Below are positions 9,243 through 11,454 of a stretch of 39,973 bases of DNA, one piece after another. Source of the DNA: a virus. The notes under the pieces were generated by a model. It was not told the DNA's origin. It saw only the letters and a program-made list of their open reading frames with translations, and searched no databases. A program made the translations under genes and the position numbers. How positions within the stretch are numbered: the stretch's first letter is position 1; each line of letters starts with the position of its first letter. The DNA is taken from the IMG/VR virus record IMGVR_UViG_3300046513_000257, positions 1-39,973 of that record; one strand, given 5' to 3'.

Positions 9243-9271
9243 ACTATACGATTACGTATTGCTAAAGTCAA
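9243..9271 (-). promoter_or_regulatory. Leftward early promoter pL
   Basis: On the minus strand the sequence reads TTGACT (9271-9266), a 17-bp spacer, then TATAGT (9248-9243), a strong sigma-70 promoter. An A-tract on that strand at 9287-9293 sits where an UP element would be. Two operators overlap the -35 and the spacer/-10, so bound repressor should occlude RNA polymerase. Confidence 0.85.
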
Positions 9272-9317
9272 TGCGAAAACGCATAGTTTTTTTCGCGTGG
9301 CTAATACGTATGGGTAT
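9246..9317. promoter_or_regulatory. oL: three repressor operators at pL
   Basis: Three 14-bp sites match ATRCG-N4-CGYAT: ATACG-ATTA-CGTAT (9246-9259), ATGCG-AAAA-CGCAT (9271-9284) and ATACG-TATG-GGTAT (9304-9317, one mismatch). Start-to-start distances are 25 and 33 bp, closely mirroring the right operator. The same sequence class occurs at pR/pRM, so CI and Cro are the expected ligands. Confidence 0.85.
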
Positions 9318-9348: not shown

Positions 9349-9372
9349 AAAAAAACCCGCTCAGGGCGGGTT
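9349..9372 (-). terminator. Terminator of the repressor operon
   Basis: On the minus strand AACCCGC, a 5-nt loop and GCGGGTT form a 7-bp stem followed by a T-run. It lies just past the stop of the 9394-9843 gene and before oL, separating lysogenic transcription from the early leftward operon. Confidence 0.85.
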
Positions 9373-9393: not shown

Positions 9394-9843
9394 CTAGAAT
9401 TTTTTCTTGTGGAACACGCATTCACCCCTGATGATCGATACCACTTCCAGCATACTTTTCCCAGCATGGGGATGTGCGGAGAATACCAGGACGCCCTGGC
9501 CTGAAAATTTATTCACATCTAATGCAACTTCTGGCCATCTTTCGCGCGGCTCGGCGTTGGGCCGCCAAGTTAACCGCAATTCCTTTGTTGAGTCTTTTAA
9601 TTTCGCTTCTCTGAAGTCCCGATCTGTACTTGGCGGATCGATTACGGTAGCTGGGTCGCCGTCGATGACAAAATCAACACCACGAAAGGTGACGCTATCA
9701 ATAAGCGCATCCATCTGCGGATCCCTGCCACCTCTCTTTGTTCTATCAAATTTGCACGACACCATCACGGGAGCCGCTACAGCAACCGGTACAACTGTGG
9801 CGAACATTAATGTCGCAAACCAATTTTTCATGTGTTTTGCCAT
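9394..9843 (-). CDS. Secreted protein of the lysogeny operon, unknown function
   Basis: The 149-residue product carries a Sec signal peptide (NWFATLMFATVVPVAVA, cleavage likely near residue 24 before APVMVSC). The mature part is mostly polar with beta-type segments and has two cysteines (one near residue 30, one close to the C-terminus in RGECVFHKKKF), which could pair in the periplasm. Base composition is visibly more AT-rich than in neighbouring genes. It is the last gene of a co-directional cluster headed by the CI repressor and ends at a terminator, so it should be expressed in the lysogen. A role in superinfection exclusion or host-envelope modification is plausible, but no family was recognised. 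Confidence 0.7.
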   Translation of the reverse strand: MAKHMKNWFATLMFATVVPVAVAAPVMVSCKFDRTKRGGRDPQMDALIDSVTFRGVDFVIDGDPATVIDPPSTDRDFREAKLKDSTKELRLTWRPNAEPRERWPEVALDVNKFSGQGVLVFSAHPHAGKSMLEVVSIIRGECVFHKKKF

Positions 9844-9855
9844 GTTATATCGCTC

Positions 9856-10113
9856 TCAAAATGGTATTTCTGGTTCGCCCGGCAATTCAAACTCGCGCCA
9901 GACTAAATCTTCGTCCGTCACCAGATCCTCTGCTATTTGCGACCCGTAACTGTTGAAAGTGCCTGCGGCGTTCCAGCTGACCAACACAACTGCCAGCATG
10001 AAATGTCGCTCGAGCTTGCTCAGCAGTTCCGCCGACTCTGCATCCGATAGATCTGGCGAGTCTGGCTGGACAGCGAACATTGACGGGGTCGTAGGCACGA
10101 TCGTGTAGAACAT
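9856..10113 (-). CDS. Lysogeny-operon protein, unknown function
   Basis: An 85-residue acidic protein: MFYTIVPTTPSMFAVQPDSP, then a helical stretch (ESAELLSKLERHFMLAVVLV) and an acidic end (EDLVTDEDLVWREFELPG). The ATG overlaps the stop of the upstream gene (TGATG), so the two are probably translated together. A competing longer frame (9887-10132) is Arg-rich and less protein-like. The hydrophobic segment at about 38-50 is short for a membrane helix. Confidence 0.6.
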   Translation of the reverse strand: MFYTIVPTTPSMFAVQPDSPDLSDAESAELLSKLERHFMLAVVLVSWNAAGTFNSYGSQIAEDLVTDEDLVWREFELPGEPEIPF

Positions 10114-10391
10114 CAGGCGGCTTCCCCATCAAGCGCCAAACTCAGCTCGGCCCACTCAAGGTCTCGGGCTTCGAGCAGTGCATACAGATATGGCTCTGCT
10201 TCGAAATCGGCATGTGCGCGTGCGCCGGCCCATAGCGCATCATCTGGCACCACAAGCATTACAGGAAGCGACAATTCGTCTGCAACACGGCGGATCAGTT
10301 GGTCCCTTCTGGGCGCAATTAGGTCTCGCCGCTCAACCAAGACTGCAACAACCCGATTCTCTCCACTCCGTACAACTGAATACCGAATCAC
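10113..10391 (-). CDS. Lysogeny-operon protein translated with the repressor
   Basis: The 92-residue product starts at GTG (10391), which overlaps the TGA of the CI gene (GTGA), so translation is likely coupled to the repressor. It has an alpha/beta-looking core (YSVVRSGENRVVAVLVERRD, then LSLPVMLVVPDDALWAGARA) and an acidic C-terminus. No membrane segment or known motif is seen. Its fixed linkage to CI suggests a role in immunity or lysogen fitness. This is inference. Confidence 0.65.
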   Translation of the reverse strand: MIRYSVVRSGENRVVAVLVERRDLIAPRRDQLIRRVADELSLPVMLVVPDDALWAGARAHADFEAEPYLYALLEARDLEWAELSLALDGEAA

Positions 10392-11101
10392 AACGCCTCA
10401 CTGTGTTTCAAAACCGCTTGCCCGACAATAATGCACTCCCCATCCTTGCATTGGCGCCTGTAGAACTGCGGATCCGGATTATCCGAACTCAGCCACCATT
10501 GCCCAGCATCTCTGGTCAGGCGCTTAATTACCGGTTCCCCGTCAAAATTAATCGCGAAAATCTTTTCGTCCCGCGGTTCCGTTTGCCCTGTGTATATCAG
10601 CACCCAGTCACCATCAAAAAGCGTTTTCTCCATACTGCGACCACCGACGCGTACCCATAAAAGCAGCTTCGGGTCATACCCGTGGCGCTCCGCCCATTCG
10701 CGAGAAACGGTCATGGTTGACCCATCGAACCGCTCAGGCTCGATTTCGAAACCCGATATCCCAGCTGCCAGGCGCAGTCGCACTTTGGGTACACGGACCA
10801 CGCGCGGGTCATCGGCCCCAACAACCTCGGCCGACCTGAAGGTGGCATTAGAGTCGACCGGAGATTTGCCCGGACTTTGAGTTGTTAAGTCACGATCGCG
10901 CAAGTCGGACACAGACACGCCAAAGAAGATGGCCAACGGCTCCAGCGTCTTCGTGCGCGGATCGTTGCTCTCGCCGGTAAGAATGCGATGAATGGTCGGC
11001 TGCGGCACGCCAGTAGCGCGCTGTAGCTCGTAGGGGTTGGTCTTCCTCTGGGCCATCAGCCATTCGAGGTTCTTTTTGACAAGGGATTCAGTGTTGCTCA
11101 T
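10388..11101 (-). CDS. cI: CI-type phage repressor with S24 autocleavage domain
   Basis: This 237-residue repressor keeps the prophage silent. Residues about 8-65 form an HTH of the Cro/CI class (AQRKTNPYELQRATGVPQPT, then IHRILTGES). The C-terminal S24/LexA domain has the self-cleavage pair A113-G114 (RLAAGISG), catalytic S156 (GGRSMEKT) and K193 (PVIKRL), so RecA-stimulated cleavage on DNA damage is expected. The ATG at 11101 is preferred over an in-frame one at 11128 because the latter would translate through the operator. It heads a four-gene operon and lies divergent from the Cro-like gene. Confidence 0.93.
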   Translation of the reverse strand: MSNTESLVKKNLEWLMAQRKTNPYELQRATGVPQPTIHRILTGESNDPRTKTLEPLAIFFGVSVSDLRDRDLTTQSPGKSPVDSNATFRSAEVVGADDPRVVRVPKVRLRLAAGISGFEIEPERFDGSTMTVSREWAERHGYDPKLLLWVRVGGRSMEKTLFDGDWVLIYTGQTEPRDEKIFAINFDGEPVIKRLTRDAGQWWLSSDNPDPQFYRRQCKDGECIIVGQAVLKHSEAL

Positions 11102-11107
11102 CCCACA

Positions 11108-11136
11108 AATATGCGTTAACGCATACATTCACGCAA
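11108..11136 (-). promoter_or_regulatory. Putative repressor-maintenance promoter pRM
   Basis: On the minus strand TTGCGT (11136-11131), a 17-bp spacer and CATATT (11113-11108) precede the repressor ATG at 11101 by only a few bases. The operator at 11111-11124 overlaps the -10 and spacer, which would give negative autoregulation. The leader would be very short or absent. Confidence 0.5.
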
Positions 11137-11178
11137 TCCTTTATGCGATTCCGCATTGACAGTGATACGCTTTCGTAT
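11111..11178. promoter_or_regulatory. oR: three repressor operators between cI and cro
   Basis: Perfect sites are ATGCG-TTAA-CGCAT (11111-11124), ATGCG-ATTC-CGCAT (11143-11156) and ATACG-CTTT-CGTAT (11165-11178). Start-to-start spacings are 32 and 22 bp. The latter two overlap the pR promoter; the first overlaps the putative pRM. Confidence 0.88.
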
Positions 11179-11183
11179 AGAAT
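11156..11183 (+). promoter_or_regulatory. Rightward early promoter pR
   Basis: TTGACA (11156-11161), a 16-bp spacer and TAGAAT (11178-11183) form a near-consensus promoter, with a start expected near 11190 and the Cro-like ATG at 11212. One operator abuts the -35 and another fills the spacer. Confidence 0.88.
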
Positions 11184-11211: not shown

Positions 11212-11454
11212 ATGACCCTTCGTACAGCACAAGAGGCCTGCCAGTTTCTGGTGACGCACAAACGATCCCAGGCGGCTATCGCCGTCCGGGCCGGCGTCAC
11301 GCAACCCACCATCAGCCGCATCCTTGCGGGCGAACACGACCCGAAGGGCACGACCCTTATCAAGCTGAACAAATTTGCCGACGAGGTCGAAGCTGAGGTT
11401 GCCACTCAGGCCCAGGTCGAGACGGAATCGAAGTCCGAATCCCAGCCGCAGTAA
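11212..11454 (+). CDS. cro: Cro-like HTH repressor
   Basis: The 80-residue protein contains an HTH at about residues 18-56 (RSQAAIAVRAGVTQPTISRI, then LAGEHDPKGTTLIKLNKFAD) of the Cro/CI class, followed by a polar Glu/Ser/Gln tail. It is the first gene from pR, divergent from CI, the usual Cro position, and should bind the same operators to favour lytic growth. No clear ribosome-binding site precedes the ATG at 11212. The sequence is not close to lambda Cro, so the name rests on position and fold. Confidence 0.8.
   Translation: MTLRTAQEACQFLVTHKRSQAAIAVRAGVTQPTISRILAGEHDPKGTTLIKLNKFADEVEAEVATQAQVETESKSESQPQ

Follow-up and report, generated by a model that had tools for sequence, protein, structure and literature searches.

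A small protein family with an SSB-like C-terminal end is linked to S24-type repressors in a phage immunity block and in bacterial chromosomes

Small proteins can reportedly tune S24-type repressors, and DdrR of Acinetobacter, a small partner of LexA/UmuDAb, is said to be one of them. For phage GIL01 such tuning of an S24-type repressor by the small protein gp7 is described in PMC9700832. The phages lambda and BTP1 have their abortive-infection genes, rexAB and bstA, respectively, in the interval from cI to the left operator (PMC8585504). A further point of reference is SSB, which does not function without its IPF end, to which ExoI and RecO bind (PMC10143822, PMC7913777). The locus described here has features in common with each of these systems. 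Its three genes, designated ORF1 to ORF3, occupy the slot of rexAB and bstA, co-directional with cI and before the left operator; unlike those genes they have no PADLOC match, and the family formed by ORF1 and ORF2 also accompanies chromosomal repressors. Like gp7 and DdrR, the members of this family are small and go with an S24-type repressor, a likeness in description, but the family gene overlaps the repressor gene and carries an SSB-like tail. With the acidic tip of SSB (DDDIPF) the family shares the terminal Pro-Phe, an aliphatic residue or Pro at position -3, acids at -4 to -8 and the location at the tip of a flexible tail. Unlike SSB, it has no SSB domain match, its tail is shorter and often proline-rich, and it is encoded together with a repressor.

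The window, i.e., the whole stretch of DNA analyzed, is an IMG/VR virus record of 39,973 bases; the features of its immunity block are compiled in Table 1.

Table 1. Features of the immunity block in the window
Feature	Position	Strand	Remarks
S24 CI/LexA-type repressor (cI)	10388..11128	-	Peptidase_S24, HTH and phrog_4 matches
ORF1, 92 aa, family member without -PF tail	10113..10391	-	overlap with cI stop; paralogue of ORF2
ORF2, 85 aa, family member, C-terminal GEPEIPF (SSB-like)	9856..10113	-	held-out tail test
ORF3, 149 aa, putatively exported, exchangeable cargo	9394..9843	-	N-terminal signal sequence; relatives have another gene or none here
Terminator-like hairpin with T run	9354..9372	-	
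Two left operator-like palindromes over minus-strand promoter-like site (9271-9243)	9245..9285	.	
Three right operator-like palindromes and plus-strand promoter-like site (11156-11183)	11110..11179	.	
Divergent Cro-like HTH gene	11212..11454	+	HTH_3, E 1.2e-8

The original prediction of three co-directional genes behind cI and before a terminator is confirmed by the coordinates and the hairpin, and the overlaps it had described are seen in the sequence: the GTG start of ORF1 and the cI stop share bases as GTGA, and the ORF2 start overlaps the ORF1 stop by one base. The gap between ORF2 and ORF3 amounts to 12 nt. ORF3 had also been called AT-richer, and it is indeed the AT-richest gene of the block (G+C content 0.487; ORF2 0.535, ORF1 0.566, cI 0.555), but the entire block from cI to ORF3 is AT-rich compared with the window (0.643). 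Across the whole window, five operator-like sites match a palindromic 16-base consensus with at most one mismatch (positions 9245, 9270, 11110, 11142, and 11164), and each of them falls at one or the other end of the block, while 20 order-1 Markov simulations of the window gave a chance expectation of 0.15 sites on average and one at most. The promoter-like sites at both block ends point outwards. With up to two mismatches, operator-like sites flank the same block in the contigs L002 (six), L003 (five) and L009 (five), and six were found in L013, one of which is poor and away from the block ends. The cassette lies past cI and ahead of the left operator, and cI, ORF1, ORF2, and ORF3 are presumably expressed in lysogens.

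The repressor matches Peptidase_S24 (E 5.5e-19), an HTH and the repressor family phrog_4 (E 1.8e-38). Residues A122-G123, which we take to be the cleavage site, and S165 and K202, presumably the Ser-Lys dyad, are invariant in four relatives. Among 46 repressors linked to the family, loose patterns detected the catalytic Ser in 34, the Lys in every one and the Ala-Gly site in 43; autocleavage is thus not assured for every linked repressor. The repressor linked to the family is probably damage-cleavable. The initial codons of the repressor ORF (MYALTHI; 11098-11128) are kept in relatives and overlap the operator palindrome 11110-11125, so that ATG 11101 rather than ATG 11128 may be the true start.

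As predicted proteins, ORF1 and ORF2 are tandem paralogues within one small family of about 90 aa; their profile-profile comparison with hhalign gave a probability of 71% over 77 columns with an E of 3.7e-5, which refers to a single comparison. Relatives of both were found in the IMG/VR contigs L002 and L003, and a third contig, L009, was reached through its repressor; the gene order cI-ORF1-ORF2 is present in all three. Protein-level conservation of ORF1 (78, 69, and 46% identity) and ORF2 (53, 66, and 53%) in the three phages marks both as real genes. Among 343 Oxalobacteraceae genomes, the ORF1 profile and the ORF2 profile matched two each, the joint profile 14 and a larger, tail-less family profile 44, and in a Burkholderiales sample the family profile matched 4 of 399 genomes. 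The match in G446 (E 7.7e-4, 31 residues) was left out of the final set of 57 distinct family proteins, which is composed of the window, the phages, the genome hits and G400; the other Burkholderiales matches were retained. Massilia agilis (Oxalobacteraceae, L013), whose repressor is 58% identical to that of the window, carries in the slot a membrane-anchored protein (phrog_2320, E 1.3e-15) and a truncated copy of the family protein (70 aa; E 9e-4, or 1.1e-6 with the larger profile). In L122 (G310) a single open frame matches the family profile twice and is perhaps a fused tandem pair.

That the three genes match no known family holds, since searches of ORF1-3 in Pfam, PHROGs, PADLOC, and NCBIfam gave no meaningful match. 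None of 22 family members matched Pfam or PHROGs at E 0.01, an SSB domain was not matched either, and the family profile had nothing below E 0.7 among PDB sequences. Tblastn against 50,697 phage records found nothing for ORF1, ORF2, ORF3, or two relatives, blastn of the cassette and megablast of window positions 16000-39900 gave no match, and nothing was confirmed in a scan of genome contigs with the ORF1 profile. Among the papers listed on phage and prophage proteins with an SSB-like tail and on Massilia/Oxalobacteraceae prophages, no description of the family was found. The AF2 model of ORF1 (pLDDT 89.3, pTM 0.81, 22 sequences) is a small alpha/beta domain with a C-terminal end of low confidence. 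Compared with PDB and viral folds it had no match with an E below 0.09 (best Foldseek E 0.095); the top rows after re-alignment were of the DapF/PhzF-type isomerase fold (Z 7.8, rmsd 2.6, 78 residues), Z values below 8 being the stated noise range, and ORF1 is far smaller than these isomerases. An SSB-type fold was not seen among the structural matches listed. Profile and structure searches, which the original prediction had put forward as a check, thus yielded relatives of the ORF1/ORF2 family, but neither an ORF3 homolog nor a convincing fold relative of ORF1.

The linkage to the repressor extends over the whole family. Of the 57 proteins, 50 have an S24 repressor gene no more than 6 kb upstream on their strand, and for 28 it lies within 60 nt; for the remaining seven, it was not found in the sequence examined. 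Together with the start/stop overlaps these counts bear out the proposed coupling of the genes to the repressor. Distances within the family and within the repressors are correlated over 46 loci (r 0.72 for the S24 part, 0.60 for the N-terminal part; 0 of 999 permutations as high). The partial r of the S24 domain was 0.54 vs. 0.23 in the 46 loci, but 0.41 vs. 0.43 in the 31 closest ones; as the S24 domain is not singled out in the latter and the preference is gone, a specific contact of the family with this domain was dropped and is not claimed. At many chromosomal loci the family gene is not followed within 130 nt by a co-directional ORF of 60 aa. Several pairs lie in ordinary host-chromosome surroundings, four of them near tRNA-Gly(CCC), as read from ORF lists and not from a gene caller. 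The constant unit is the repressor with the family protein, and exported or defence-like genes vary. In L077 and L078 an ORF which we assume to be RecQ-like is encoded a few kb from the pair.

In a first large alignment 18 of 22 sequences ended in -PF. Circularity was avoided by cutting the last eight codons from 23 members, searching the 343 genomes and reading the ends afterwards. An exact -PF end was present in 47 of the 57 family proteins, in 28 of the 34 held-out proteins outside the tail-less profile, and in 11 of 14 clusters formed at 50% body identity. An acid at -4 to -8 was found in 45 of the 47 proteins with -PF, and at least two acids in 26. The host SSB ends in FSDMDDDIPF in three of four genomes read, the ORF call of the fourth stopping before the SSB end. 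A Gln-based clamp motif was not seen in the family tails. The ten proteins without -PF comprise the ORF1 copies of the window, L002, L003, and L009, whose ORF2 copies keep it, the truncated M. agilis copy, the proteins of L137 (DLQF) and L141, one part of an L138 gene that is split over two frames, and the weak family matches L142 and L069. As the ORF1 copies are tail-less in all four tandem pairs, not every copy needs the tail. At the sequence level the ORF2 tail resembles the acidic tip of SSB, and ORF1 has lost the tail. Similar ends, either further SSB-like tails or chance, were noticed in a 340-aa ORF near ssb (DFDLDIPF; L074:2294-3316, +) and in the primase of Variovorax phage VarioGold (DADDAPF; L011:902-3565, -).

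The SSB-like end and the tie to a probably damage-cleavable repressor suggest that the family protein docks on SSB-binding proteins and tunes the switch driven by RecA. We tentatively prefer the reading, possible if somewhat short of probable, that ORF1 and ORF2 form a repressor-linked accessory which attaches to the host's SSB-binding proteins and modulates RecA-dependent derepression, and that ORF3 is separate cargo; from the established family membership, repressor linkage with overlap and tail likeness, we infer binding and function. ORF1 and ORF2 would be produced together with the repressor in lysogens and would pair with each other, and the ORF2 tail would dock on host proteins that bind the SSB tail (e.g., RecO, ExoI, PriA, RecQ). 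Docking would take the pair to single-stranded DNA, perhaps together with the repressor; RecA loading or self-cleavage of the repressor would so be tuned and the prophage's readiness to respond to damage thereby set. If true, this would connect the SSB interaction hub with a prophage repressor, and a dormant phage, or a chromosomal operon containing the same pair, would have a testable direct way of sensing or dampening replication stress. A bolder and improbable extension is that an undescribed family of SSB-tail mimics constitutes the sensor half of S24-repressor switches, riding SSB-binding proteins at stalled or foreign forks and reporting to or shielding the repressor; prophages and chromosomal defence-like operons with BstA, HipA-like, AlbA, and PIN cargo would then share one damage-sensing control module.

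Such cargo was found where repressor and family gene are separated. In L129-L136 and L138 the distance between them is 1.8-4.2 kb with other genes in between, among them a BstA-family gene in an Oxalobacteraceae genome (L131:6928-7881, +; PADLOC E 2.4e-116), a HipA-like kinase in L129 and an AlbA_2/HATPase protein in L133; L061 contains a PIN protein. In a scan of ten of the cargo proteins, Pfam had no match for six and PADLOC none for seven. The family flags a repressor-bounded slot with BstA and toxin-like genes in Oxalobacteraceae and may help in finding further defence genes. Gene pairs of about 260-300 aa recur as cargo in L129, L130, L132, and L135 (one member in L129 is HipA-like); several of these genes match no Pfam or PADLOC model, and the pairs are possibly toxin or defence pairs.

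The slot and the BstA neighbor make an antiviral role a serious, albeit rather unlikely, rival. ORF1 and ORF2 would then be effectors, or part of them, of superinfection immunity or abortive infection and would reach foreign replicating DNA via SSB-binding proteins, and ORF3 may add exclusion at the envelope. The slot had been named beforehand as one of anti-phage genes, which agrees with the rexAB and bstA position (PMC8585504) and with the BstA gene of the chromosomal relative; the BstA, HipA-like, AlbA, and PIN genes that separate the repressor from the family gene and the exported third genes of phage-type loci also suit such a role. The BstA gene of L131 is a separate neighboring gene, however, and the PADLOC BstA model did not match ORF1-3, which are without any PADLOC match. 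Moreover, the family pair stands alone with the repressor at many chromosomal loci, and a constant family amid variable defence-like genes suits a control part better than an effector. With its SSB-like tail and S24 partner the constant part looks regulatory or linked to DNA repair more than like an effector.

It is unlikely that the -PF end is no SSB mimic but a degradation or PDZ-type tag or a contact of the protein's own fold or dimer, which would make the proteins plain co-repressors. Among 5762 distinct background ORF tails (all loci, family removed) -PF occurs in 15, two of which are SSB, and an acid combined with -[LIVMP]PF in five, again including two SSB; this ending is rare and is also that of SSB in the same hosts. 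The structure model, which covers ORF1, has low confidence at its C-terminus, in keeping with a flexible tail. Co-repressors would fit the repressor linkage, which is as strong as the tail, and some tails in which strong acidity is missing; many tails are proline-rich with few acids (PPF, PPPPPELPF), unlike DDDIPF.

The third genes are not constant. ORF3 is best read as separate, swappable, exported envelope cargo on the same transcript, and the proposed set of two cytosolic proteins and an exported one is supported by signal calls made with simple patterns, without a trained predictor. C30 fits a loose lipobox pattern, and ORF3 is possibly a lipoprotein, but AVAA-P can equally be read as a site of Sec cleavage; C30 and C143 could form a disulphide. 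The ORF3 structure model, built without an alignment, is poor (pLDDT 45). No relatives of ORF3 were found in viral contigs, and its matches in 7 of 205 genomes (E up to 0.1, best 0.0039) were all short pieces and were taken as chance. In the corresponding position L002 encodes a lipoprotein resembling DUF4156 (E 6e-5, a match that misses Pfam's cut-off) and L003 a different lipoprotein-like protein, and in L009 there is no gene between ORF2 and the terminator. A single exclusion system of all three genes, as the original prediction had it, is consistent with one transcript by anatomy, the short gaps and the shared slot, but is very improbable as ORF1 and ORF2 stay with the repressor in phages and chromosomes and ORF3 is swapped (L002, L003) or absent (L009). 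Third genes were read as exported or membrane-anchored in the window, L002, L003, L046, L048, L049, and L058, and also in L047 and L121, where they encode a zinc ribbon with a hydrophobic segment; that of L126 is a 131-aa ORF without signal. The M. agilis prophage carries a DUF4214/RTX-repeat protein (L013:9524-10570, +) between cI and the left operator.

Toward the left end of the window a tmRNA gene (1163-1521, +; Rfam, 211 bits) is located beside a 394-aa ORF (1625-2809, -), which may encode an integrase, and the prophage may be inserted in the tmRNA gene of its host.
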